Positions 721 to 19,975 of a stretch of DNA of 64,000 nucleotides are shown one piece after another. Position 1 is the first letter of the stretch; each line of letters begins with the position of its first letter. Source of the stretch: Cytophagales bacterium (GTDB taxonomy: Bacteria; Bacteroidota; Bacteroidia; Cytophagales; Microscillaceae); assembly GCA_004293905.1 (NCBI GenBank), contig RDZE01000016.1, forward strand, positions 1-64,000, written 5' to 3'. The translations under genes and the position numbers were made by a program. The notes under the pieces are model-generated. The model was given only the letters and a program-made list of their open reading frames with translations. It did not search any database and was not told the DNA's origin.

Positions 721-2301
721 TTAAAATTGTACATAACAATTTGGCAGTAGTTTTTTTATTTTTGTTTTTTCTTCTTCTGAGAATGTATTGGGGTTCTTTT
801 TGTCTTCATCATAGTTTGTTAGATATAGTTCTTTGAGTTTAGAAAGTTGAAAAACCGCCTCGGGAAGTTGGTTTAAGCCCAAATCTCCTAAAAATAATCT
901 TTCTATATTGGGTAATAGCCATAGGGTTTGGTTGATTTGTTCCGAAGAAAGTGGATTATTGTTCAAAGTTGACACTGTCAAATTTTTCAACTGCCCTATC
1001 TCCACAGGCAAACGACTCAGTTGATTACCTGATAACCGCAACACTGTCAAATTTTTCAACTGCCCTATCTCAACAGGCAAACGACTCAGTTGATTATTTC
1101 GCAAATCTAATGTTGTCAAATTTTTCAACTGCCTTATCTCTGCTGGTAGTTCTTTAATTTGGCAACTACCTAAATTGAGGTAGTTTAGGTTTTGGAGGGC
1201 GAAGAGAGTGGGCGGGAGGGGGAAGAATTGGTTTCGGTTGTCATAACCACGATCCGCACTCAAATCGAGGTAGCGGAGTTGTTGCTGCGCAAGGAGATTT
1301 TCGGGAATGGCTGTCAGTCCGTTTTGTAGTATTTCAACTCCTGTGATTTGTTTCCAATAGCTACTGTCTATGGCTGAGAGGTCATTGACGGATACGTAGA
1401 TAGAGTGGAGTTGGGGCAAACCTTTGAGCCTTTGCATACTTGTCCAGTCTATTTCGGGGTTTTGGAGCAGGTTGAGGTGTGTGAGGCGGGGGCATTGTGC
1501 AAGTTCTTGAGGGAGGGCAGTGAGGGCATTGCCGCTGAGGTCTAAGCTGTCTATCTGCCCTAAAATTTTATCTCTTTCGGCTTTTTCTTGGCTATTGTTT
1601 GAATTGTAATTACTATAGCTCTTCCATTCAGGGAAACGGTTTTTTACTGCCTTGTCAAATACGGCGGTTTCCATTTTAGTTTGCATTGTTTTGGCAAAAT
1701 CAAGTGCATCTTCGGTAATCTGCCATTGCCAAAGAGCAAAAATACTTACCCTCAAAAGTATTATCACAAAAATAGCAACCCCTATGCGTTCATTTCTTGT
1801 TCTTTGTTTTTGACCTTTCTGTTGTCTTTGTAGTTTAGTTTGGCTATCGTATATGAGTTTTATTTCCTCTTTGGTTAGTTTTAGCTTGTTTTGGTAGGGC
1901 AAGATGATGTCGAGTTGTTTTTCCGAAAAGAGGTCTTTACCAAAAGCCAGTTGATTTTTGATGAGCCTGTCTATTTCGAGCAGGGCAATTTCTTCATCAG
2001 AGCGTTTGGCGGCTATCTGTTTGGCGAGTGTATCGTGGCTCACTTCGTAGAGTGCGTCTTTTTCGGTATAGCGCAAAATGCGAACATTGGCAAATTTTTC
2101 TACTGCTTGGTCTAAGAGATGAGGAGGTAGTTCGGGCAGTTTTCCTTGTAGATTTTCCAAAGAAAGAGGTTCTTTGGTGCCTTCTAAGGTCGCAAAAGGC
2201 GAGAGGATTTTCCAAAGTGTTTCAGGGCTTTGTTGCAAGTCTTTGGCTATTATGGTAACTTGTTCTTCCAAAAAATCGCGCAGCACGTTGCCTATGTCCA
2301 A
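721..2301 (-). CDS. Winged-helix, transmembrane and LRR part of an nSTAND receptor (frame-split from the NTPase)
   Basis: This open frame of 526 residues has no ATG near its start; the first possible initiator is TTG at 2301, inside the end of the upstream NTPase frame. Residues 1-100 (NVLRDFLEEQV ... YEVSHDTLAKQI) match the helical/winged-helix region that follows the NTPase in nSTAND proteins. A hydrophobic segment at about 173-192 is a predicted membrane anchor. From about 250 to the end lie leucine-rich repeats of the LPxEIGQLKNLTxLxLxxNQL type. In family terms the LRRs are the likely ligand-sensing superstructure. I infer this and the upstream NTPase frame were, or are, one protein. If it is translated alone from TTG it would lack a P-loop. 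Confidence 0.75.
   Translation of the reverse strand: MDIGNVLRDFLEEQVTIIAKDLQQSPETLWKILSPFATLEGTKEPLSLENLQGKLPELPPHLLDQAVEKFANVRILRYTEKDALYEVSHDTLAKQIAAKRSDEEIALLEIDRLIKNQLAFGKDLFSEKQLDIILPYQNKLKLTKEEIKLIYDSQTKLQRQQKGQKQRTRNERIGVAIFVIILLRVSIFALWQWQITEDALDFAKTMQTKMETAVFDKAVKNRFPEWKSYSNYNSNNSQEKAERDKILGQIDSLDLSGNALTALPQELAQCPRLTHLNLLQNPEIDWTSMQRLKGLPQLHSIYVSVNDLSAIDSSYWKQITGVEILQNGLTAIPENLLAQQQLRYLDLSADRGYDNRNQFFPLPPTLFALQNLNYLNLGSCQIKELPAEIRQLKNLTTLDLRNNQLSRLPVEIGQLKNLTVLRLSGNQLSRLPVEIGQLKNLTVSTLNNNPLSSEQINQTLWLLPNIERLFLGDLGLNQLPEAVFQLSKLKELYLTNYDEDKKNPNTFSEEEKTKIKKLLPNCYVQF
961..1150 (-). repeat. 69-bp direct repeats encoding 23-residue LRR units
   Basis: Two nearly identical copies and a third partial copy of a 69-bp unit (containing GTCAAATTTTTCAACTGCC) run head to tail inside the LRR gene, each encoding one leucine-rich repeat. 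The near-identity at DNA level, against far more divergent flanking LRRs, suggests recent unit duplication or gene conversion. Confidence 0.8.
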
Positions 2302-3095
2302 ACGGCTTCTTTTTGGTGCGTTTCATCTTGGGTGATTCGCCTATAGAGTCTGTCTAAAAACACTTGCAGATAAGGCAGTTGTATAAAGAGGGATTTTTCT
2401 TCACCTTTAATTTTGTTGAAAATTTCTTCGGCAATTTGTTCTTTTTCTCCTTCTTTGAGTTTTACGTTCGTGTGTGGGTTTTGGTCTATACCGTTGAGCA
2501 CATGGTTTATTTTATCAAGGTTCATCGGTTCTACCCTTAGTTTTTTGCGCAACAGTTCGGGTACGGCTTTTTCAAATTCATATAAGTAGCCTAAGTATTC
2601 TTCTCTGATAGAAAACAGCATTTTGATAGGTAAAGGACTTGCATAAATTTGTTTTATGGCTTGTATAAATTCTTTTTGTTCTGTTTCACTACCCAAAATA
2701 TAAAGTTCTTCAAGTTGGTCAAAAATCAAATAAATAGGAGATAGGTATAGTATATGAACTGTTTCCAATTTTTTAAGTAATTGGTCTAAGGCTTTATCTT
2801 TATTAAAAAGATACTCCCCTTCAGAAGCCTCGCACAAGGTTTTATCCAATGAATGATTAAAATTGTCTCCTCGTCTGATAAAAAATGCTTTCCAGTCGTA
2901 ACTTTTAAACTGATTTGCCAAACCGCAATCTATCAAACTTGTTTTGCCTGTACCCGAAGCCCCATAGAGCCATACCATTTTGGATTGATGCACCAAATTA
3001 TATAATTGCTCGGTTTCCTCTTCTCTACCAAAAAAAATGTCTTTGTCTTTGAGGGCATAAGCATCTAAAAATTTAAAGGGATATATTTTTGTCAT
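2292..3095 (-). CDS. nSTAND NTPase domain protein (sensor/switch of the gasdermin operon)
   Basis: 267 residues from ATG 3095. FFGREEETEQL (21-31) is the typical entry of STAND NTPases. Walker A is GASGTGKTSL (45-54), Walker B is YLIFDQLEEL (122-131), and a sensor-1-like strand MLFSIREEYLG is at 159-169. STAND NTPases act as NTP-driven oligomerising switches in animal, fungal and bacterial immunity. The frame stops at 2292 right after AVWT, where the helical region should continue; that region lies in the -1 frame (721-2301). Gap to the upstream 540-residue gene is 20 bases, so it is in the operon. I infer a role in sensing and in activating the CHAT protease or gasdermin arm. Confidence 0.88.
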   Translation of the reverse strand: MTKIYPFKFLDAYALKDKDIFFGREEETEQLYNLVHQSKMVWLYGASGTGKTSLIDCGLANQFKSYDWKAFFIRRGDNFNHSLDKTLCEASEGEYLFNKDKALDQLLKKLETVHILYLSPIYLIFDQLEELYILGSETEQKEFIQAIKQIYASPLPIKMLFSIREEYLGYLYEFEKAVPELLRKKLRVEPMNLDKINHVLNGIDQNPHTNVKLKEGEKEQIAEEIFNKIKGEEKSLFIQLPYLQVFLDRLYRRITQDETHQKEAVWT

Positions 3096-3115
3096 TTTAT
3101 TTCTATTTGATAGTA

Positions 3116-4738
3116 TTATAAATTGTCAAAATTTTCATTTGTTGAGTCAGACTTGGGTGGTTCTATATCGAAACTTTGGAATATTTTTTTGATGAGCTTG
3201 AACAAATTATCTTTTTTGACATCTTCCTCCTGATTAGGCTTAAAAGTTTGCTTGTCCCCCAATGTATCCTCAAATTTTATGTACTCAGTCTTTTCTTTTT
3301 CAATTATGAAGAATTCTAGTTGCTCCTGTGATAAATCGTGATCCTTAGTCATTTTGTGAGCTTCAAATACACCCAAAAGGGGTTCTTGTTGGTTAGAGAA
3401 AGCATTGATATCAATCACAAAAGGGGATAGATTGATAAGTGTTGTCTTATTCTGCATAAAAATAGAGAAGGCATCAATAGGCTTATCATCTAATTTGAGT
3501 AATTGATTATTACTTTCCAATCCCAGTAATTGCATATTTTTGATGTACAGTGGAACTTCTTTTTTATAGTTGATTAGTTTCACATCTTTTACTGATACTA
3601 ACTTGTAATTGAACCAAAAATCGAAAATGGGCAAAATAATGGTGAGGCAATCTTCCGCTTTCTGACAGTTTTCTATGCCTTGGTCATTGATGTTACTAAC
3701 ACTTTCCATTGCCAAACAAGTTTTGTAAAACTCACTGTTTTCTTTGAGATGTGCTGCCAATCGCTCAAGCTCTAAATCTGTGAATGGATTAGGAATATTG
3801 TCTTTTAAGTGTGTATCTATGAGTTCTTTGAGCAATTCACGCCAGTCGCTTGGGTATAGTTTTGTACCTGAGTGTAACCACTTTTGTAATTTATTGGAGG
3901 TATTTGCTATCTTATCTTGATGGTCTAAGCGTACAGAAAGCAAGGCGAAACAAGTGAGTTGCAGGCACAACTTATACACCTCTTGGCAAAGTAAAATATA
4001 GATATCCTCATTCACTTTTCTTTCAAAACCTGTGTTATAGAGCCTTTGTAAATACCTCCCGATAATACTCCCAAATCCCTTTCCAATAATGTTTTGAACC
4101 TCTCTTATTTTTTTGATGTCCAAAGTCCAAGAATCATCTTGCTGGTTCGTAATAAAAGTTTTTAAATCTATGTTATCATATCTCCTTAGACTCGTAACAA
4201 GTTTATATGTGAGTGATAAGTTAAGTCTTACCTTGGCAGTAAGTAATCCAAAATTAGCTTCACTAATAGACCCAATATTGTAAATCTTATCAACCTGTTG
4301 GATAGTATTAGCATTAAGTTCAAGCAACAGTTCTTTTAGAGCCGAAAACTCCTTGCGTAGGTCTTTGATGACCCCATTCAGACTCAAAAACAGGGTGTCG
4401 TCAGTGCTTTGCAAGATGAGATTTTGGTTTTCTATGTAAGTACTTCCATCTCCCATATTGATTTGCTTGCCTATTTTATCTCTAATGACCTCCGTTTTTT
4501 CTTTCACAAGGCTACCGAGTGCTGCTGCTTCTAAATCAGGGTTTCCGACATTGACAGCAAAGACCGAGAGTTGTTGGTAGTAGTCCCAAGATGTTCTTCC
4601 TGAAATCATCATCATCTTTAAGGAACTATACAGCGGTTTTAGTTTGGTAGGTATTTCCACCTTATCCATTTCCTCAAAATAGCCTTCAATATTGGCTTTC
4701 TCGAGGTGTTTGAGGGCATTTTCAATCTGTTCTTTCAT
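3116..4738 (-). CDS. Adaptor-domain protein of the gasdermin operon, function unknown
   Basis: 540 residues from ATG 4738. Residues 1-80 form a helical module resembling effector-associated adaptor domains (EADs) found at N-termini of bacterial conflict proteins. Residues 86-106 contain a linker (QINMGDGSTYIE core) that is 16/21 identical to residues 102-122 of the CHAT protease encoded two genes upstream. The middle is alpha-helical with no motif I recognise. A C-terminal segment (LINLSPFVIDINAF, then FFIIEKEKTEYIKFED) looks like a small beta-rich domain. No signal peptide or membrane helix. The shared linker and operon position (11 bases after the gasdermin stop) suggest it pairs with the protease, as regulator, substrate or second effector; that is inference. 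Confidence 0.7.
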   Translation of the reverse strand: MKEQIENALKHLEKANIEGYFEEMDKVEIPTKLKPLYSSLKMMMISGRTSWDYYQQLSVFAVNVGNPDLEAAALGSLVKEKTEVIRDKIGKQINMGDGSTYIENQNLILQSTDDTLFLSLNGVIKDLRKEFSALKELLLELNANTIQQVDKIYNIGSISEANFGLLTAKVRLNLSLTYKLVTSLRRYDNIDLKTFITNQQDDSWTLDIKKIREVQNIIGKGFGSIIGRYLQRLYNTGFERKVNEDIYILLCQEVYKLCLQLTCFALLSVRLDHQDKIANTSNKLQKWLHSGTKLYPSDWRELLKELIDTHLKDNIPNPFTDLELERLAAHLKENSEFYKTCLAMESVSNINDQGIENCQKAEDCLTIILPIFDFWFNYKLVSVKDVKLINYKKEVPLYIKNMQLLGLESNNQLLKLDDKPIDAFSIFMQNKTTLINLSPFVIDINAFSNQQEPLLGVFEAHKMTKDHDLSQEQLEFFIIEKEKTEYIKFEDTLGDKQTFKPNQEEDVKKDNLFKLIKKIFQSFDIEPPKSDSTNENFDNL

Positions 4739-4749
4739 AAGTTTTATCT

Positions 4750-5482
4750 TTATTCCTCAAAATCCATCATTTCTGTTTCTATCATTTCACCAGTGCTATC
4801 CAAATCGGCAGTATTGCGTACTTGTCTGAGTATTACCTTACTCAAAGAATAGCGGTCTTTCTCTGCTTGGTAGATGATTCTATAGGCTTTCAAGGCAAAA
4901 GTAACAGGTACATCGCTTTGGTAACTGAGTTGGTCGTCTTGTTCTTTTTTGAGGTTTTGGCTGAGTTCGGCAAGCTGTTCGGCACTGAGGTCATTTTGTC
5001 TGTAGCACCTCCGTAACTACGTAGATACTACCCTTATGCACCTTTTCCATAAAACCAGTGAGGGTTTCAGGCTTTTTGTGTAGGTTGAGGTAGTCTTCCA
5101 AAAGCACTACATTGGTATCTATGCGCTTGGGTTGTTCAAAAGAATACAGTAGCTTTTTGGCTTGACTGAGTTTTGCCTCCGCATTGCCTATTTTTTTGAA
5201 GACATCAAGTTTCAAACCTGCATCACTTTCCAAAATATCGTGCCCTTTGAAGTTGGGAATTTCTTGTTCCGAGTTGATTTTTGGAAGTACTCCACGCCCA
5301 CTTTTTTGAGGAAATAAATCAAAAAGACCAGCACTGAGCGATTCGGCATTGTCTTCTCCTCCAAAGATTTTTTTGAAGAAACCTCTTTCAGTCCTCTCTA
5401 AAATACTTAGGGGCAAAAGGTTAGGTTTGGGTAAGGCTACCCATGTGTAGCCTAATTTGTTGATGATATTGGGTTGTTTCAT
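4750..5482 (-). CDS. Bacterial gasdermin (bGSDM), pore-forming death effector, interrupted by an apparent frameshift
   Basis: The N-terminal frame (ATG 5482) encodes 163 residues and ends at TGA 4991-4993. Coding potential continues in the +1 frame to TAA 4750-4752, adding 81 residues. Joined, about 243 residues, close to the usual bacterial gasdermin length. Gasdermin signatures: LGYTWVALPKPNLLPLSIL at the N-terminus; GSIYVVTEVLQT (151-162), strikingly like the YVVTEVLQT strand of mammalian gasdermin D; and VPVTFALKAYRIIYQ downstream, like the mammalian LAFRVxQLxI strand. Family knowledge: proteolytic removal of a short C-terminal tail frees the N-terminal part to form membrane pores. The tail here would be the acidic last 20-30 residues. 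A CHAT protease lies immediately upstream (12-base gap). No cysteine is present, so the N-terminal palmitoylated cysteine reported for some bacterial gasdermins is absent. The frame break is at an A4 run just after VLQT. Confidence 0.85.
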
Positions 5483-5494
5483 TTTGATAAGGGT

Positions 5495-6469
5495 TTAAAG
5501 GTCTAATTTTTCGCCGTTTTTCCAGATTTCGGGGACAAGTTCCATGTTAGGATATGTAGTGCTTATCACAATCATCGCATCATCAAAAGCCTTTTCTATG
5601 CTTTTGCCTGCTCCTAAGCCGATATACAATCCACCCGCAAAACTAATGGCAGCCTCATCTGCAATTTCTACGTGCATACCTATGACATAAATCCCAAATT
5701 CAGAAATGACCTTCGCCTGTTCTGCCGAGTAGCAAGCATTCAAGACTACGAGTTTTGTACTGTCTTTATGCTGTTTAAACAAACGCTTGATGGCGTCAGT
5801 GGGCATTACTTGCGCTTCATTTTGGGCATTGGTGATGATGATACCATCTAAAGAGCCGTGTCCAGAAAAATGCACAATTTCGGGTTTTTGGTTCATCGCT
5901 TCTATCAAATCCTCCACTTGCATACTCAAAACTGGTTTTAGTAACTCAAATTTATCTCTTTCTTGTGATGCTTTGAGGCGTTGCATTATTGTGGCATATT
6001 CTTTATCAGTTTGCAGTCGAGCTTCATTGGTAGGATTGGCAGCCAAGAAAAGGATTTTTTGTTTGGCTTGGCTTTTGGCTTGCTGGATACTTTCCTGTTG
6101 ATTGTTTTGGCTTTCAATATAGGTGCTGTTATCTCCCAGATTTATTTGTCTATCAATTTTATCTCTGCCTATGATGTCGCTTGTAATGTTTGTAATGTTT
6201 GATTTCTTTTGTTGATTCAAATGATTTTCAAGCATCCCTAATGCCCCCAAAAATTGCGCAGTAATTTTATTGAATTGGGTAGTTGCTTCGCTTGTACTCA
6301 TTTCAGGTATTTTCAAGAGATAGTTATTAAATTGTGTTTTGATACTTAATAGCATATTTTCGGTATCTTTGTCCTGTTGTTTTGCCAAAGCAATGGCTTC
6401 CTCTATGGCTTGCTTTTGTTTGTTTTCACCTCCTGAGGCAAAAAGGTCTTTTATTTCTTGGATAGTCAT
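5495..6469 (-). CDS. CHAT-domain (caspase-like) protease with N-terminal adaptor domain
   Basis: I place the start at ATG 6469 (324 residues); a longer frame begins only with TTG 6484. Residues 1-85 form a helical domain with the pattern of effector-associated domains (LLSIKTQFNNY ... MSTSEATTQFNKITAQFLGALGMLE). Residues 102-122 are a polar linker shared with the 540-residue protein downstream. Residues 138-324 are a CHAT peptidase: catalytic His204 in VHFSGHG and Cys246 in VVLNACYSA. CHAT proteases are clan CD relatives of caspases and separases, and several bacterial gasdermin loci encode one as the activating protease. It is the first gene of the minus-strand operon, so I infer that it cleaves the gasdermin. 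Confidence 0.9.
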   Translation of the reverse strand: MTIQEIKDLFASGGENKQKQAIEEAIALAKQQDKDTENMLLSIKTQFNNYLLKIPEMSTSEATTQFNKITAQFLGALGMLENHLNQQKKSNITNITSDIIGRDKIDRQINLGDNSTYIESQNNQQESIQQAKSQAKQKILFLAANPTNEARLQTDKEYATIMQRLKASQERDKFELLKPVLSMQVEDLIEAMNQKPEIVHFSGHGSLDGIIITNAQNEAQVMPTDAIKRLFKQHKDSTKLVVLNACYSAEQAKVISEFGIYVIGMHVEIADEAAISFAGGLYIGLGAGKSIEKAFDDAMIVISTTYPNMELVPEIWKNGEKLDL

Positions 6470-6568
6470 TGGATAAAGAAACAAATTTTTGGGGTGAATT
6501 TTAATAGGGTTAAAAGAAGATGCATTGAATCAATCTTCCCTCAAAATACCAAAACGATGAAAAATCTC

Positions 6569-14309: not shown

Positions 14310-14924
14310 ATGAATAGTATTACAGAAACAACTTTGCCTCTCATGGAGGCTTTTTATACCCTACAAGGAGAAGGATTTCACCAAGGAAAAGCAGCCTATT
14401 TTATTCGGTTAGGAGGGTGCGATGTCGGTTGTCATTGGTGCGATGTCAAAGAATCTTGGGACGCAAAACAACACCCTGCCATTTCTATTTCCGAGATAGT
14501 AAGCCAAGCCGAACAGTACCCCGCTCGATTGGCTGTCATTACTGGCGGCGAACCTTGCATGTACGATTTAGAAGAGCTATGCGAAGCACTGCATAAGGCT
14601 GGTTTTCAGGTAAATATAGAAACCTCAGGCGCATATCCTTTGAAAGGTGATATTGATTGGATTTGTTTTTCACCCAAAAAATTTAAGCCTGCTTTAGAGT
14701 CTTTTTATCAAGAAGCCCACGAATTGAAAGTAGTAGTGTACCATCTAAGCGATTTGCAATGGGCAGAAAGCCATGCTACACGTATGCACCCAAAGGCTTT
14801 GCTCTATTTACAACCCGAATGGAGTCGCGCGGAAAGTATCACACCCGCCATTATAGACTATGTAAAGGCACACCCTCAGTGGCGCATTTCTCTACAAACG
14901 CATAAATATCTACAAATCCCTTAG
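14310..14924 (+). CDS. queE: 7-carboxy-7-deazaguanine synthase
   Basis: Start taken as ATG 14310 (204 residues); the frame extends to a TTG at 14301, which I reject. Radical-SAM enzyme converting 6-carboxy-tetrahydropterin to 7-carboxy-7-deazaguanine for queuosine tRNA modification. The 4Fe-4S cysteines are in GGCDVGCHWCDVKESW (C-x3-C-x2-C), preceded by the substrate-site YTLQGEGFHQGKAAYFIRLG. ITGGEPCMYDLEEL is the SAM-binding strand. The other queuosine genes are not here. Ends 3 bases from the convergent OmpA gene. Confidence 0.93.
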   Translation: MNSITETTLPLMEAFYTLQGEGFHQGKAAYFIRLGGCDVGCHWCDVKESWDAKQHPAISISEIVSQAEQYPARLAVITGGEPCMYDLEELCEALHKAGFQVNIETSGAYPLKGDIDWICFSPKKFKPALESFYQEAHELKVVVYHLSDLQWAESHATRMHPKALLYLQPEWSRAESITPAIIDYVKAHPQWRISLQTHKYLQIP

Positions 14925-14927
14925 CAT

Positions 14928-16874
14928 TTATAATATTTTGAACTCAATGCGTCTGTTGCGCGCGCGTCCTTCTTCAGTGCCATTGTCAGCGTCAGGTTTT
15001 GTATCGCCATAACCTTTGTATTCTAAACGGTTAGGAGCGATGCTCGCAGCCACTAAAAAGTCATACACGGCTTTGGCTCTATTTTCGGAGAGTGTAACAT
15101 TGGCTTGTGCCTGCCCTATATTGTCTGTATGCCCCGATATTTCGCCGCGTACATTGGGGTTGGCTTTCATAAAAGTAACCAATTCGTTGAGTTCAGTTTT
15201 AGAAGTTTCCTTGAGGTCATATTTGCCATACTCGAAAAAGATATTTTCCAAGCGAAAGACCGTCCCCGTAACAATAGGTTCAAGTGGAATATCTATTTCG
15301 GTGGCTACATTGTTTTCATCAGGTTGAAAAGATAAACTCTTGAAAGCAAAACCGGGTTTTAATACTTGCAAGCCATATTGCGTTTTTTCATTCAATACAA
15401 TCAGATAAGTACCATTTTTTTCGTCAGAACTGACCGAAGATTGTTTTATGTTATTATTGAGGTCATATAAATCTATATCTGCTTTGAGGGGCTCTTTAGT
15501 TTGGGCATTGTAAACCTTGCCTTTCACATACCTACTCACAACACTTGGGCGCATTTCGGGAGGCAGGTCAAAGGAATATAAAATACTACTTTTGAGAGTA
15601 CCATTTTCTATTTTTTCTACGGAATAAAAGCCCTTAGTGCCATCGGTAGTGATAAAAAGCCCTACTTGGTCTTCGTGTGTATTGAGTGGGTAGCCCATAT
15701 TTTTAGGAGCAGTCCAAGAAAGATTGGCTTGTCTTTCTGCCGAAAATATATCGTAGCCACCAAAACCCGTATGCCCATTAGAGGAAAAAAAGAGGGTTTT
15801 TCCGTTCACATGTATCAAAGGTGAAACCTCATCAAAAACCGTATTGACTACATTCCCCAAGTTTTTGGGCATTGTCCATCGGTTATCTGTTCCCAAATAA
15901 CTTACCCAAATATCTTTCCCACCAAGCCCTCCGGGTCTGTTAGAAACGAAGTAGAGCGTTTTGCCATCAGCACTTAAGGAGGGTTGTGATTCCCACGCGA
16001 CCGAGTTGATAGGCGCGCCTATGTTCACGGGTTTTGTCCATTCATCTCCTATTTTTCGGGTGATGTAAAGGTCGCATTTTCCTAAATTATCGGGGGTGCT
16101 ATTGCAAGAAGTAAAAACTATAGTACGTCCGTCTGCCGATATGCTACAGGTGCCTTCATTTTCAGCCGTGTTGATTTGGTTAGAAATACTTGTAGGGTTG
16201 CTCCACTGCCCATTGTTCCATTGGCTGATGTACATATCTTCATCACCGCTTGGTCGTTGTGGGTTGTTGGTTGCTTTTCTACCCGTAAATATCAAGTATT
16301 GGTTATCGGCAGTAAGAGCAGGAAAATATTGTAAATACAATTGATTGATTGGTGCAGGCAAGGCGATGGCATTATAGGGTAGTACAGTGTTAATGTGTTC
16401 TTTAGCATACAAACAATCTCCTTTTACTTTTTTGGCATATTGCAAAGCAGCCGCATCATCAGGTTTTAGCTGTATGAATTGCTCACAATATTGTAAGGTT
16501 TTGTCATAGTCTGCCGTTAGTAAGGTGAAGTATATAAGCATAGGATAAGCCCTTGCAAATGCTTTTTTAGTAGGTGCATTTTGTACTGCTTTTTCAAAAT
16601 GAAATAACATTTTCGCTTCATTTTTGTATAATTCATGGATAGTAGCCAAACGAAAATGCGCTTCTGCAAAATTAGCGTCTTTTTCAAGAGCTTGGCTAAA
16701 TAGGTCTTTTGCTTCGTCATAATAACGCGCATTGTATTTTTCTAAGCCTTTTTCATACAATTTTATTGCTTGTACGTTGGTAGAGTTGTATATATTTTGG
16801 GCAAAAATGCCATTTACAATGAAAAATGTTAATAAAATGAAAAAAAAGTACTTATTTTTGCAAAGTTTACTCAT
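14928..16874 (-). CDS. PorE-like outer-envelope protein: TPR, beta-propeller, carboxypeptidase-regulatory-like domain and OmpA domain
   Basis: 648 residues with signal peptide (cut near GIFAQ). Order: TPR helices (about 30-150), WD40/PD40-like propeller repeats (about 175-430, e.g. LSADGKTLYFVSNRPGG), a carboxypeptidase-regulatory-like beta domain (KGKVYNAQTKEPL..ADI), and a C-terminal OmpA peptidoglycan-binding domain (EISGHTDNIG, LSENRAKAVYDFL, RARNRRIEF). This is the architecture of PorE, a type IX secretion component that binds peptidoglycan. Cytophagales carry several paralogs, so PorE itself is not proven. A type IX-tailed subtilase at the right end shows the system is in use. Confidence 0.88.
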   Translation of the reverse strand: MSKLCKNKYFFFILLTFFIVNGIFAQNIYNSTNVQAIKLYEKGLEKYNARYYDEAKDLFSQALEKDANFAEAHFRLATIHELYKNEAKMLFHFEKAVQNAPTKKAFARAYPMLIYFTLLTADYDKTLQYCEQFIQLKPDDAAALQYAKKVKGDCLYAKEHINTVLPYNAIALPAPINQLYLQYFPALTADNQYLIFTGRKATNNPQRPSGDEDMYISQWNNGQWSNPTSISNQINTAENEGTCSISADGRTIVFTSCNSTPDNLGKCDLYITRKIGDEWTKPVNIGAPINSVAWESQPSLSADGKTLYFVSNRPGGLGGKDIWVSYLGTDNRWTMPKNLGNVVNTVFDEVSPLIHVNGKTLFFSSNGHTGFGGYDIFSAERQANLSWTAPKNMGYPLNTHEDQVGLFITTDGTKGFYSVEKIENGTLKSSILYSFDLPPEMRPSVVSRYVKGKVYNAQTKEPLKADIDLYDLNNNIKQSSVSSDEKNGTYLIVLNEKTQYGLQVLKPGFAFKSLSFQPDENNVATEIDIPLEPIVTGTVFRLENIFFEYGKYDLKETSKTELNELVTFMKANPNVRGEISGHTDNIGQAQANVTLSENRAKAVYDFLVAASIAPNRLEYKGYGDTKPDADNGTEEGRARNRRIEFKIL

Positions 16875-16953
16875 GACGATTTATTTTTAATGAATTTTAA
16901 AATTACTCAATTTTGATTAGAAACACAAAATAATAAAATGACTTTTTACAACC

Positions 16954-17442
16954 ATGAAACAATTATCACTCGTTAGACACGCACATTCACTCTCTACACA
17001 AAACGGACAAACTGACTACGAACGTATACTCAGCCCTATCGGGTTGGAGGAAATAGAAACGATGAGCACTTGGTTGGGTAGCCAAAAAACAATAGACTGC
17101 CTTATAGCAAGTGCCGCTGTAAGAACTACTCAAACTGCAGATTTTTTCGCAAAAATTTTGAATTATCCAAAAGAAAATATCATATTTGAAAGAAAAATCT
17201 ACCAAGCTACCTTAGAAAGTCTACTTTCGTTCATTCAACAAATAGATAAAAAATACGACAGCGTGTTATTGATAGGGCACAACCCTACCATAACGCACTT
17301 AGCAGAGTATCTTACAGGTTTTGGCTTACGCGATATGCCTACTTGTAGTATCGTAACGATGAATTTTGAAACCAACGAATGGGCAGATATAGACAAAAAT
17401 CAAGGTAATTTAATTACTTTTAAACACCCACAAAGTACATAA
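16954..17442 (+). CDS. SixA-like histidine phosphatase
   Basis: 162 residues. The N-terminal LSLVRHAHS carries the RHx catalytic motif of the histidine phosphatase superfamily, and LLIGHNPTITHLAEYL holds the second catalytic His. The short single-domain form resembles SixA, which dephosphorylates histidine-phosphotransfer proteins; a role on small-molecule phosphates is also possible. Followed by two small membrane-protein genes on the same strand (29-base gap to the first). Confidence 0.88.
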   Translation: MKQLSLVRHAHSLSTQNGQTDYERILSPIGLEEIETMSTWLGSQKTIDCLIASAAVRTTQTADFFAKILNYPKENIIFERKIYQATLESLLSFIQQIDKKYDSVLLIGHNPTITHLAEYLTGFGLRDMPTCSIVTMNFETNEWADIDKNQGNLITFKHPQST

Positions 17443-17471
17443 ATATAATTCAAACACCAAAAACTAAAAAA

Positions 17472-17819
17472 ATGCTTTTTTTATTCATTGCCATACTCCT
17501 ATTCATCACCCAATATCTTTTTGATGCGTGGTGGCTCATTTTGGTTTGCCCCTTTTTTATGTCTGTGTTGCTCTCACGTGGCTATGTACATGCATTCTTC
17601 TCAGGCTTTTTTGCCGTAGGAATCGTTTGGTTCAGTATGGCTTTTTATCTCAATTACCAAAATGAAAGCCTATTACTTAATCGTGTAGGTACTATGTTTA
17701 GTTTGCCCGCAGGCTATTGGCTTTTTGTCATTACCTTCCTCATAGGCGGAATTGCTGGCGGAATTTCTTCACAAACAGGCTATTCGCTCAAAGCACTTTG
17801 GACAAGAGCAAATAAATAA
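17472..17819 (+). CDS. Small three-helix membrane protein, unknown
   Basis: 115 residues, nearly all hydrophobic. Three or four predicted membrane helices: LFIAILLFITQYLF/AWWLILVCPFFMSVLL, AFFSGFFAVGIVWFSMAFYL and GYWLFVITFLIGGIAGGISS. A small C-terminal tail of basic residues is cytosolic by the positive-inside rule. No family recognised. Lies between sixA-like and another single-pass small protein. Confidence 0.7.
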   Translation: MLFLFIAILLFITQYLFDAWWLILVCPFFMSVLLSRGYVHAFFSGFFAVGIVWFSMAFYLNYQNESLLLNRVGTMFSLPAGYWLFVITFLIGGIAGGISSQTGYSLKALWTRANK

Positions 17820-17828
17820 AACTTTTTT

Positions 17829-17860
17829 TTTGGATATAAAAAAGAAAGCCATTACTTTTG
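17829..17860 (+). promoter_or_regulatory. Putative Bacteroidota-type promoter
   Basis: TTTG at 17829-17832, 20-base spacer, then TACTTTTG at 17853-17860, a perfect TAnnTTTG box. It lies 29 bases upstream of the ATG at 17890, so the small anchored protein probably has its own transcript. Confidence 0.65.
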
Positions 17861-17889
17861 TAACATATAAATATAAATAATCGCGCAAT

Positions 17890-18249
17890 ATGAAAAACTT
17901 CTTTGCACTTCTTTACACCATCATAACCGTATTAAGTTTAGGTTATTTCTTCTTCTTTGGGTTTAACAATTATAACCAATCTGACCTCAAAAAACTCAAA
18001 GACCGCAACGAAGGCAATATCAATATCTATGGTATCAAAGGGCAACCCGCTCGCCAAACACTTAACAAGTACACTAATACTACTGAAAGTGGTAAAGTTG
18101 CCGAAGAAATAAGAACTAAATTCTTCAGAGGCAAGGGTCTTCCTGAAACGACTAACCCCTCTACTGCCGATACTACTTCCACCAAAAAAGAAACTAAAGA
18201 CGAAACTAAAAAAGAAGAAGTGAAAAAAGACGAGAAAAAAAGTGCTTAA
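17890..18249 (+). CDS. Small membrane-anchored protein with Lys/Glu-rich tail, unknown
   Basis: 119 residues. One N-terminal membrane helix (FALLYTIITVLSLGYFFFFGF) is followed by a polar region and a very charged C-terminal stretch (ETKDETKKEEVKKDEKKSA) that should be disordered. The start is supported by the promoter box at 17853. No recognised family. A 9-bp stem (AAAACCTTA / TAAGGTTTT, 277-316 of the 18,000s) lies downstream and could end the transcript. Confidence 0.72.
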   Translation: MKNFFALLYTIITVLSLGYFFFFGFNNYNQSDLKKLKDRNEGNINIYGIKGQPARQTLNKYTNTTESGKVAEEIRTKFFRGKGLPETTNPSTADTTSTKKETKDETKKEEVKKDEKKSA

Positions 18250-18276
18250 ATTTCACTGATTTATTTTCCTTACATT

Positions 18277-18316
18277 AAAACCTTATCTGCCATTTCTCAA
18301 TGCTGGGTAAGGTTTT
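18277..18316 (+). terminator. Possible weak terminator hairpin
   Basis: AAAACCTTA and TAAGGTTTT form a 9-bp stem with a 20-base loop between the small anchored-protein gene and the fumarylacetoacetase gene. There is no long T run, so termination is uncertain. Confidence 0.4.
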
Positions 18317-18356
18317 GAAATTATAATACAGACCTTTATTTTAAACTAAATTTTTT

Positions 18357-19646
18357 ATGCTAACTCCTATTAACGCAGATACACACCCCGATTTGAAAAC
18401 TTGGCTTCCTATTTCCCCTCAAAGCGATTTTTCCATTCACAATATCCCCTTTGGTATCTTTTCAGTAGGCAATAGCAGCCCAAGAGTAGGCACACGCATC
18501 GGCGACCACATCATAGACCTAAGCGTATTAGCCGAAGAAGGTTTCTTTGATGACCTTCCCCTCAGTGATATGTCTGTGTTTTATGAAAACATCCTTAATT
18601 TTTTTATAGAACAAGGCAAAACAGCCACCAATGCAGTACGTAACCGAATCATAGAAATATTCACACAAACCGATTACAAAGAAAAAGTTACTGCCTTAGA
18701 AGGTCAAAGTAAAGGAATGTACGAAAGTACTTCTGTTCGTATGCATCTCCCTTTGCGTATCGGCGACTATACCGACTTTTATTCAAGCATAGAACACGCC
18801 ACCAACGTAGGCGCAATGTTCCGCCCCGATAATCCACTACTGCCCAATTGGAAACACCTCCCCGTAGGCTATCACGGAAGAGCCTCCTCTATTGTAGTAT
18901 CGGGCACGCCCATATACCGCCCCTTAGGGCAAACCAACCCACAAGATGCCGAAATGCCACTTTTTGGTGCTTCCAAAAGAGTAGATTTCGAATTAGAACT
19001 TGCTTTTGTGGTAGGTAAAAATACCCATTTAGGACAACGCATAAACACACAAGATGCCGAAGAGTACATATTCGGATTTACACTCTTCAATGATTGGTCT
19101 GCACGCGATATACAGCGTTGGGAATATGTACCCTTAGGACCTTTTCTCTCTAAAAATTTTGGCTCCGTGATTTCTCCTTGGATTGTTACCTTAGAAGCAA
19201 TTACCCCCTTTCGCACCGAAGCACCTCCACACCAAGTAGAAGTATTGCCTTATTTGAAAGCACAAGCCAATAAAAATTTTGACATCTCCTTAGAAGTCAT
19301 TTTGCAAGCCAAAGAAGGAGAAGAAAATATCATCACAAAGACCAATTTTAAGCACATGTACTGGAGCATACATCAACAATTGGCGCACCATACTATCAAT
19401 GGTTGCAATATCAATATTGGCGACTTGTATGCCTCTGGCACGATTAGTGGAAAAGAAAACAATGCCTATGGTTCTTTATTAGAACTGACTTGGGGAGGAA
19501 AAAATCCAATTCAACTCAACAATGGGCAACAAAGAACTTTCATAGAAGATTATGATACTATCATTATAAGAGGGTTTGCCTCAAAAAACAATATAAGAGT
19601 AGGTTTTGGAGAAGCGCGCTCTCAATTGTTGCCTGTGATAGAATAA
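18357..19646 (+). CDS. fahA: Fumarylacetoacetase
   Basis: 429 residues, full family length. It hydrolyses fumarylacetoacetate to fumarate and acetoacetate, the last step of tyrosine/phenylalanine (homogentisate) degradation. N-terminal FAA_hydrolase_N (IPFGIFSVGNSSPRVGTRIGDHIIDL), then the catalytic domain with DFYSSIEHATNVGAMFRP, VGYHGRASSIVVSGTP, FELELAFVVG and LFNDWSARDIQRWEYVPLGPFLSKNFG, which supply the metal ligands and catalytic His. Other homogentisate-pathway genes are not in the window. Ends at a clear hairpin terminator. Confidence 0.95.
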   Translation: MLTPINADTHPDLKTWLPISPQSDFSIHNIPFGIFSVGNSSPRVGTRIGDHIIDLSVLAEEGFFDDLPLSDMSVFYENILNFFIEQGKTATNAVRNRIIEIFTQTDYKEKVTALEGQSKGMYESTSVRMHLPLRIGDYTDFYSSIEHATNVGAMFRPDNPLLPNWKHLPVGYHGRASSIVVSGTPIYRPLGQTNPQDAEMPLFGASKRVDFELELAFVVGKNTHLGQRINTQDAEEYIFGFTLFNDWSARDIQRWEYVPLGPFLSKNFGSVISPWIVTLEAITPFRTEAPPHQVEVLPYLKAQANKNFDISLEVILQAKEGEENIITKTNFKHMYWSIHQQLAHHTINGCNINIGDLYASGTISGKENNAYGSLLELTWGGKNPIQLNNGQQRTFIEDYDTIIIRGFASKNNIRVGFGEARSQLLPVIE

Positions 19647-19649
19647 AAA

Positions 19650-19682
19650 AAACCGCCTGTTGGGGCGGTCTGAAAAATTTTT
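19650..19682 (+). terminator. Rho-independent terminator
   Basis: ACCGCC (19652-19657) pairs with GGCGGT (19664-19669), flanked by an A run upstream and by AAAAATTTTT downstream. Sits between convergent fahA and the 67-residue gene and can serve both. Confidence 0.8.
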
Positions 19683-19684
19683 AT

Positions 19685-19888
19685 CTATACAGAGTAACTA
19701 AAACGAAAACACTTGTCTAAAACATTTCGCAACTCTTTGGAAGTTTTGAATTGTTGGTAGCACCAATTTTGTAAAGTGTCTACCTCATGAGGCTGCAAGT
19801 ACACGCGGATAGATTTTTGTAACTCTTTTTCAAAAAGGTTTCTATCAAAACTTACTTTTTGAAGGATAGTTTTTACATACTCTAACAT
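19685..19888 (-). CDS. Small conserved cytosolic protein, unknown
   Basis: 67 residues from ATG 19888. Mixed charged helical protein (YVKTILQKVSFDRNLFEKELQKSI, then LQPHEVDTLQNWCYQQF). It resembles a small uncharacterised protein family that I recall from Bacteroidota genomes, with a helix-rich body and one WC pair. The shared terminator with fahA and the clean start support a real gene. No function can be assigned. Confidence 0.68.
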   Translation of the reverse strand: MLEYVKTILQKVSFDRNLFEKELQKSIRVYLQPHEVDTLQNWCYQQFKTSKELRNVLDKCFRFSYSV

Positions 19889-19975
19889 AATGAAATTGTC
19901 AATTTTGTAAATTTTGTTGTAATTAAAAATAGTTAAGTGATAAGAATAATTTGGGGACGAAGTTAATTAGTTTTT

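Follow-up and report, generated by a model that had tools for sequence, protein, structure and literature searches.

Organization of the operon

The window analysed here, a 64 000-nucleotide stretch of a Cytophagales contig, carries on its minus strand an operon at positions 721–6469. The operon is real and has four genes, which encode a CHAT protease, a gasdermin, an adaptor of 540 residues (P540) and one nSTAND1-TM-LRR protein. A preliminary description had reported five genes in tightly spaced minus-strand frames; the frames lie where it placed them, separated by 12, 11 and 20 bases and with an overlap at the last junction, but the gene count differs. Five separate proteins are ruled out because relatives have a single STAND gene, of which the frames of 267 and 526 aa are the two halves. 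As read from the sequence, the operon joins two modules that elsewhere recur apart. Recurrence of the whole set, on which the earlier proposal had depended, was not borne out: the four-gene set was sighted once in everything searched, and it is its two halves that recur.

The CHAT protease and the gasdermin

The caspase-like CHAT protease (5495–6469) has 324 aa counted from the ATG at 6469; a TTG at 6484 is a possible alternative start. Its match to Pfam CHAT (5e-13, 49.6 bits) lies above the cut-off of 24, and the dyad proposed earlier, His204 and Cys246, was found at these positions in the translation. The N-terminal part (6230–6469) resembles the adaptor EAD11 (PF19964), with scores of 17.6 and 21.4 bits in two scans, both below the cut-off of 26.

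The gasdermin is encoded in two pieces. The first (4991–5482, 163 aa) matches the PADLOC family bGSDM at 3.6e-12 and the PDB entries 9v2s and 7n52 at about 4e-05; the second, in another frame (4750–4998), matches bGSDM at 2.2e-05. The gasdermin similarity noticed previously is confirmed for both pieces, at values where chance is not an issue, and an intact relative reaches 2.3e-25. The NCBIfam bGSDM equivalog cut-off of 100 bits is missed by both the window piece (40.7) and the intact relative (68.3); by these profile scores, the window gasdermin is a divergent bGSDM member. Among the 15 genomes of the window's family, a CHAT gene lies immediately upstream of all three gasdermins, those of the window and of the genomes G738 and G746 (the G746 CHAT scores 22.2 bits against the cut-off of 24). 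Two further bGSDM matches from the class sample are doubtful and were set aside: L072, by eye an unrelated enzyme, and L069, where the gasdermin frame is absent at the match.

The sensor gene and the two lesions

The first half of the STAND gene (2292–3095, 267 aa) encodes the nSTAND1 NTPase (2e-34; 120.3 bits against the Pfam cut-off of 27.1), and its Walker A and B motifs, at residues 45 and 122, are confirmed in the translation. The second half (721–2301, 526 aa) carries a winged-helix-like part, a predicted transmembrane segment and leucine-rich repeats, the last supported by Pfam LRR_4 at 1.3e-20. The transmembrane segment (1729–1785) has a mean hydropathy of 2.58 and is preceded by a charge of +5 and followed by −2. 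Of 42 full-length STAND relatives, 35 have such a segment, and in 32 of these the positive side faces inwards. A simple LRR pattern is passed by only 3 of 62 STAND relatives, so LRRs are not the usual sensor of this group.

The LRR frame, previously taken for a protein of its own, is the 3′ half of a single broken gene. The relatives L016 and L145 have STAND as a single frame (760 and 705 aa). At the join in the window, 28 nt are absent by comparison with L145, which shifts the frame and leaves the nSTAND1 frame not intact; the residues missing there are carried by all ten aligned relatives. The gasdermin frame is likewise not full-length: DNA alignment with the intact 257-aa gasdermin of the G738 locus L144 reveals 41 nt missing at the join of the two pieces, again with a frame shift. 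One-base homopolymer slips, considered as the cause of the lesions, are discarded in view of these two longer absences.

With two of its four genes broken, the operon is probably dead in this genome. Inspection by eye of the ORFs listed for the 64-kb window showed no other broken gene, which makes general sequencing noise unlikely. It is nevertheless conceivable, at a low probability, that the lesions arose in assembly and that the organism itself carries a functional operon with all four genes intact. The genome consists of 50 contigs at 90% completeness and may be a metagenome assembly; the lesions were read in the assembled sequence; and dN/dS relative to the L144 locus is low, at 0.069 for CHAT and, in the two parts of the gasdermin, 0.055 and 0.18 (the STAND NTPase piece was saturated, as was CORE, and neither yields a value). 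Clean gaps of 41 and 28 nt within 5.7 kb, together with the otherwise unbroken window, argue against assembly errors, and we infer that both lesions are genuine. The lesions affect the gasdermin and the sensor while CHAT and P540 remain open, a pattern that would be compatible with a costly suicide system being lost.

An alternative in which the two STAND frames form a natural two-protein sensor, like those of Saprospira and Aureispira, appears very improbable. Natural splits do occur, at about residue 355, with a second protein whose start lies just ahead of an ELxHD-like motif (L101–L104, L108, L112, L129 and others), but the window break comes earlier, at residue 267, and is missing residues that each of the ten aligned relatives has. 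Moreover, the sole start of the second frame is a TTG overlapping the first, and a natural split of the sensor would not rescue the gasdermin.

P540 and the CORE–nSTAND1 module

P540 (3116–4738) is an open frame of 540 aa combining an adaptor with a domain that we call CORE. The adaptor domain P540N (about 73 aa; 4520–4738), defined by a seven-row alignment, occurs in one copy in its own genome and is common to P540 and the G738 CHAT. CORE (3119–4228) is delimited by the family alignment and by a structure model of high confidence from about residue 171; residues 1–170 of the model are too weak for use. Pfam, NCBIfam and PADLOC scans of CORE matched nothing. In the relative L047, the CORE part scores 16.5 with Pfam Ctf19_RWD1, below the cut-off of 26. 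A fold search with CHAT-CORE also listed a yeast enzyme, 3rm5 (1.3e-04, rmsd 22), which is unrelated. The same three collections gave no match to a named death-fold in the operon proteins; the P540N part of the model is of low confidence.

An nSTAND1 gene follows CORE in 60 of 63 cases; the remaining three stop at a contig end, and there are no exceptions. In 43 of the 63 relatives CHAT and CORE form a single fusion protein, and the catalytic His and Cys are invariant in all 38 aligned fusions. These patterns point to a recurring sensor pair, CORE–nSTAND1, that takes different killer proteins and is apparently unnamed.

Gasdermins were found neither by profile in the flanks of 82 CORE loci nor, with our own profile, among all proteins of the CORE loci (E ≤ 1); a first version of this profile, from six sequences, missed the G746 gasdermin, and the profile was rebuilt from nine. 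In a PADLOC scan of 115 of 126 small neighbours, bGSDM was absent from the families listed (25 of 43). P540 and the gasdermin had no match in a plasmid collection, nor had the L144 gasdermin in viral contigs, in a single-protein pattern search that detects close relatives only.

Matching motifs and the proposed connection between the modules

A short motif is common to CHAT (residues 98–124; 6098–6178) and P540 (residues 83–109; 4412–4492), with 76% identity over 21 residues, the third best pair among the 57 window proteins. Across the 15 family genomes, no protein matches it apart from the three that supplied the motif, the one outside the window being the G738 CHAT. The adaptors ahead of the motif differ, being EAD11-like on CHAT and P540N on P540. 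A comparable arrangement, with different motifs, is found at eight of the 20 CORE genes that have no CHAT fusion: there, an effector encoded upstream (TIR/DUF4062-like, caspase, cyclase-like or small) ends in a short motif that is also present at the N-terminus of the CORE protein. In carrying a short motif in both the effector and its sensor-side neighbour, the window CHAT and P540 and these eight loci resemble amyloid signalling pairs.

The operon might instead consist of two systems side by side, a CHAT–gasdermin pair under another sensor and a CORE–nSTAND1 pair with another effector, which we consider unlikely though worth weighing. CHAT–gasdermin pairs can have other sensors, since those of G738 and G746 are without CORE or STAND in the stretch examined, and CORE–nSTAND1 pairs exist without gasdermin. 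A candidate for the other sensor is an LRR-Roc-COR-EAD11 protein on contig C21 of the same genome, which could be the CHAT partner: EAD11 occurs on it and, weakly, on the window CHAT, and a COR-B-like tail (24.6 bits, cut-off 27) lies in frame ahead of the G738 CHAT. Against two independent systems stand the operon gaps of 11–20 bases on one strand, the CHAT–P540 motif, restricted as it is in the family genomes, the frequent fusion of CHAT to CORE and the P540N domain shared by P540 and the G738 CHAT.

Proposed mechanism

We somewhat favour the reading that the locus is a cell-suicide operon, made up of two modules and inactivated only recently, and its working cycle can be proposed for the intact ancestor. 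The sensor module would comprise the membrane nSTAND1 NTPase, its LRR end probably outside the cytoplasm, and its constant partner CORE, here in P540; the execution module would be the CHAT protease and the gasdermin. A trigger at the LRR end would cause the NTPase to assemble and, through CORE, to cluster or open P540, which would recruit CHAT by the matching motif. Crowding may then activate CHAT, so that the gasdermin is cut near its C-terminus and forms pores that kill the cell, probably to stop phage. CHAT and CORE, one polypeptide in most relatives, would in the window be split and bridged by the motif. That the STAND arm activates CHAT and CHAT frees the gasdermin had already been suggested; the gene order, the CHAT-CORE fusions beside nSTAND1 genes, the position of CHAT directly before the gasdermin in the family and the common motif agree with these connections, and the activation steps stay predictions. 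The low dN/dS of CHAT and of the gasdermin pieces and the transmembrane segment of most STAND relatives also speak for this reading. Against it weigh the single sighting of the whole set, the differing adaptors on CHAT and P540, the small number of STAND relatives that pass the LRR pattern and the CHAT–gasdermin pairs that have neither CORE nor STAND nearby; no link to phage came to light.

A wider reading is more tentative. CORE–nSTAND1 pairs may represent unnamed bacterial 'inflammasomes' with a membrane-anchored sensor and interchangeable killers, either fused (CHAT, C14 caspase, TIR/DUF4062-like) or encoded separately. Separate killers would be joined by a motif found at their own end and again where the CORE protein begins, the matching motifs assembling homotypically, perhaps amyloid-like, and the window lineage might have acquired a CHAT–gasdermin pair with its own dedicated motif.

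Comparison with known systems

As in the bacterial gasdermin–protease systems (commentary PMC9079055), the gasdermin gene adjoins a gene for a caspase-like protease; the window adds the CORE–nSTAND1 arm. Most bacterial gasdermins are reported to have a conserved palmitoylated Cys3 (PMC9079055), whereas neither the first gasdermin piece nor the first 50 residues of the L144 gasdermin contain a cysteine.

The Lysobacter CARD-NLR gasdermin system (PMC13236601) likewise places an NLR-like NTPase, an adaptor, a protease and a gasdermin in one operon and is predicted to act by abortive infection, as we predict for the window operon. It uses trypsin-like proteases, of which Pfam, PADLOC and NCBIfam scans found none among the operon proteins; the window has CHAT, nSTAND1 with LRRs, and the unnamed CORE and P540N. 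The operon suggests how an NLR-like sensor might be wired to a gasdermin with no trypsin-like protease in between. Among fungal gasdermins, which are controlled by CHAT or subtilisin-like proteases (PMC12881547), a CHAT protease may also adjoin the gasdermin, but in fungi CHAT belongs to a TPR or NLR receptor, while sensor, adaptor and protease are separate genes in the window.

The EAD/STAND conflict systems (Kaur et al. 2021, PMC8195603; PMC10907252) also combine STAND NTPases with small adaptor domains and bring in a protease effector through homotypic contact, as proposed here; the sections of these descriptions consulted mention neither a gasdermin effector nor a CORE-like partner. The NLR-associated amyloid signalling motif pairs, as covered by the parts of PMC8086366 and PMC9815663 consulted, resemble the window in having a short motif in an effector and in a sensor-side protein. 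In several relatives the placement is also theirs, with one copy at the extreme C-terminus of the effector and the other at the N-terminus of its partner; in the window the motif lies internally, and the sequences were matched here to no named motif. The operon also draws attention to CORE and nSTAND1 as a two-gene module that recurs and seems to swap killers by fusion or by short matching motifs, which makes a general rule of bacterial death signalling testable.

Organization of the gasdermin operon

The minus-strand block at 721–6469, read from the ORF lists and the sequence, is a real operon, as the preliminary description held; the gene count given there was a misreading, since the five frames amount to four genes. 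First in transcription order is a CHAT protease (5495–6469; Pfam CHAT, E = 5e-13; His204 and Cys246). The gasdermin follows in two pieces, at 4991–5482 (PADLOC bGSDM, 3.6e-12; solved bGSDM chains at about 4e-05) and 4750–4998 (PADLOC bGSDM, 2.2e-05). The third gene (3116–4738) encodes P540, a protein of 540 residues with an N-terminal adaptor domain (P540N) and a C-terminal domain, here called CORE; Pfam gives DUF2863 alone, below the cut-off (E = 0.095), and no PADLOC or NCBIfam profile matches at E ≤ 1. The nSTAND1 protein occupies two frames, at 2292–3095 (Pfam nSTAND1, 2e-34) and 721–2301 (Pfam LRR_4, 1.3e-20). The operon is a new variant of the bacterial gasdermin systems. Recurrence of the four-gene set was not borne out, the full set having been seen once; the more general find is a CORE–nSTAND1 module with exchangeable effectors, or killers.

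The window opens contig C22 of a genome of 3.29 Mb in 50 contigs, 90 per cent complete. A Uma2-like gene at 3–536 (Pfam, 7.8e-09) is truncated by the contig start, and contig C49 ends in a second copy with 93–98% DNA identity. Positions 598–710 are a dispersed repeat, pieces of which are found at many genome sites, several in contig C34.

Lesions in two of the four genes

The nSTAND1 protein is a single frame in the relatives L016 (760 residues) and L145 (705 residues). Residues common to all 10 aligned relatives are missing from the window at the break, and 28 nt are absent at the join by comparison with L145; the supposed separate LRR protein is thus part of one broken nSTAND1 gene. The gasdermin is intact (257 residues) in locus L144 of G738, a genome of the same family, with which the CHAT–gasdermin stretch shares 78% DNA identity; 41 nt are absent at the gasdermin join of the window. 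Two of the four operon genes are therefore broken in this genome. Inspection by eye of the ORFs listed for all 64 kb of the window showed no further broken gene, which leads us to prefer putative decay to sequencing noise.

Nei–Gojobori dN/dS ratios were calculated for the window against L144 (gasdermin, CHAT) or L145 (STAND, CORE). The low values for the two gasdermin pieces (0.055 and 0.18) and the CHAT domain (0.069) indicate that these proteins were under selection until recently. The ratio is 0.28 for the second STAND piece; dS is saturated for the STAND NTPase piece and CORE.

The CORE–nSTAND1 module

A first CORE profile, of two rows from the C-terminal part of P540, found matches in 14 of 395 class genomes, that of the window included. 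An nSTAND1 gene adjoins CORE in 16 of 19 fetched loci; in L039 a contig-cut gene resembling the second half of the STAND protein lies beside it, and in L046 and L056 nSTAND1 is absent. Scanning one genome per species with a pattern yielded 63 loci, and a profile check found 63 CORE proteins in 61 of them (none in L121 and L131). A same-strand nSTAND1 gene follows CORE in 60 of the 63 cases and the other three reach the contig end, leaving no exceptions; the gap is at most 190 bases in 58 of 60, and 22 are 4-base overlaps. As the locus sets overlap (e.g. L126/L016, L080/L039, L130/L052, L133/L047) and are heavy in Saprospiraceae, the counted loci are not independent events.

CHAT is fused ahead of CORE in 43 of 63 proteins, with its His and Cys invariant in all 38 aligned fusions; in L114 a C14 caspase takes its place. 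No protein of the CORE loci matched a nine-sequence gasdermin profile at E ≤ 1. The scanned CORE proteins had no PADLOC or NCBIfam match, and six without CHAT (L016, L044, L049, L056, L145, L093) had above-cut-off Pfam matches only in fused parts. The P540 model was built from 59 rows (mean pLDDT 77.6), with high confidence starting at residue 171 and low confidence before it; it gave 378 matches in the PDB, none reaching E = 0.001. In the model of the L133 CHAT–CORE fusion (83.7), the CHAT part matched SAVED-CHAT 8tl0 (9.6e-08) and caspase-7 (1.1e-03); one unrelated enzyme likewise passed 0.001.

The window STAND protein has a hydrophobic segment (2.58) with a charge of +5 before and −2 after it. 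Such a segment follows residue 330 in 35 of 42 STAND relatives of at least 560 residues, and the preceding side is the more positive in 32 of these 35. These features suggest that the protein sits in the membrane, with the sensor outside the cytoplasm. A simple LRR pattern is passed by only 3 of 62 STAND relatives; LRRs are thus one kind of sensor among several.

Several variants were observed among these loci. The nSTAND1 gene is naturally in two, split at about residue 355, in L101, L102, L103, L104, L108, L112 and L129, the second protein beginning just before an ELxHD-like motif. The nSTAND1 proteins of L100, L105, L106, L109, L110 and L122 have about 625 residues and two STAND matches per chain. 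L090, from a record named KSB1 (outside Bacteroidota), carries two CHAT-CORE/nSTAND1 pairs in tandem.

Killers with a matching motif

Fused CHAT is missing from 20 of the 63 CORE proteins. A gene whose product ends in an A-D/E-K-I-Y/F-N-I type motif, present also close to the N-terminus of the CORE protein, is directly upstream of CORE in seven of these 20 loci and about 2.9 kb upstream in an eighth, L073; the remainder have no motif-ended gene that we could see, or a fused N-terminal part instead. The killers of L073, L074, L075, L086 and L087 are DUF4062/TIR-like (sub-cut-off Pfam or profile likeness), that of L085 is a C14 caspase (1.8e-16), that of L081 is cyclase-like by eye and that of L083 is a protein of 124 residues. 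In L016, L076 and L126 a DUF4062/TIR-like killer and CORE form one protein (profile about 1e-49).

A loose motif pattern, composed after the motif-ended killers had been seen, occurs at 25 places in 1141 proteins: 9 protein ends, 15 CORE proteins and 1 elsewhere. All nine ends are those of genes that neighbour CORE or lie upstream of it; L148 repeats L081. Mean tail-to-CORE similarity is 59.9 for cognate pairs versus 47.2 after re-pairing, and 391 of 40,320 re-pairings reach the cognate mean (100 of 5,040 without L075); shuffled tails score 22.3, at most 28.5. The matching is partly due to relatedness of the loci.

In the window, P540 holds a killer-type motif, VDKIYNIGSISEANFG, and no protein ends in one. 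Another stretch is common to CHAT and P540 (76% identity over 21 residues, E = 9.6e-06), the third-best pair in an all-against-all comparison of 57 window proteins, behind an ABC-transporter pair and an LRR pair. A profile of the 28-residue form of this stretch recovered, from 15 family genomes at E ≤ 0.1, only its three sources: the window CHAT, P540 and the G738 CHAT. The domain ahead of it is P540N in the latter two and, below the cut-off, EAD11-like (an adaptor domain, PF19964) in the window CHAT. Elsewhere in the family P540N stands at the N-terminus of nSTAND3-LRR (L150:1015–3570), EAD1 (L153:4629–5156) and cyclase-like (L154:5115–6407) proteins. A P540N-plus-motif unit may once have been common to CHAT and P540, the domain on CHAT having been swapped later.

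Two further proteins with an EAD11 or EAD11-like C-terminus were noted in the same genome. A 1108-residue LRR-Roc-COR protein in contig C21 (L163:58–3384), with an EAD11-like C-terminus resembling the start of the window CHAT, is possibly another sensor for CHAT. In contig C23 (L162:1064–5655), a SIR2-like protein with a C-terminal EAD11 (1.5e-17) is directly followed by an nSTAND1-WD40 protein.

The CHAT–gasdermin module

Of the 15 family genomes, 3 have a match to the PADLOC bGSDM profile: that of the window, G738 and G746. Each carries a CHAT gene immediately ahead of the gasdermin; the G746 CHAT falls just under the Pfam cut-off (22.2 versus 24). No CORE or STAND gene lies within the stretches fetched for G738 and G746. 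Ahead of the G738 CHAT is a COR-B-like tail (L144:10325–11224; 24.6 bits against a cut-off of 27). Further upstream its frame is interrupted by stop codons, and it is probably the remnant of a decayed Roc-COR gene.

Larger samples, in which the genome of the window was counted, gave profile matches in 3 of 395 phylum and 11 of 395 class genomes. Among the 10 other class loci, a C14 caspase gene adjoins the gasdermin in three (L066, L067, L070), a CHAT gene lies about 2 kb downstream in L065 and no recognizable protease is present in four (L017, L018, L068, L071); the matches in L069 and L072 were judged apparently false. CORE was matched in none of the 10. About 5 kb from the L067 caspase–gasdermin pair, on the opposite strand, is a CHAT-STAND protein of 1682 residues (14868–19916) with CHAT, a STAND part and repeats.

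Proposed mechanism and known systems

A trigger would act at the LRR end of the STAND protein, which may then assemble; CORE and the motif would gather CHAT, which would cut the gasdermin and so allow pores to form. Bacterial gasdermins are released by protease (PMC9079055), and the accessible part of another report places a fungal gasdermin under CHAT control (PMC12881547). A search of literature listings and of main-text passages from mostly open-access articles turned up neither CORE paired with nSTAND1 nor the four-gene set, so either may already be in print. Judging from the accessible part of its description, the CARD-NLR system of Lysobacter is the nearest analogue of the window operon (PMC13236601).
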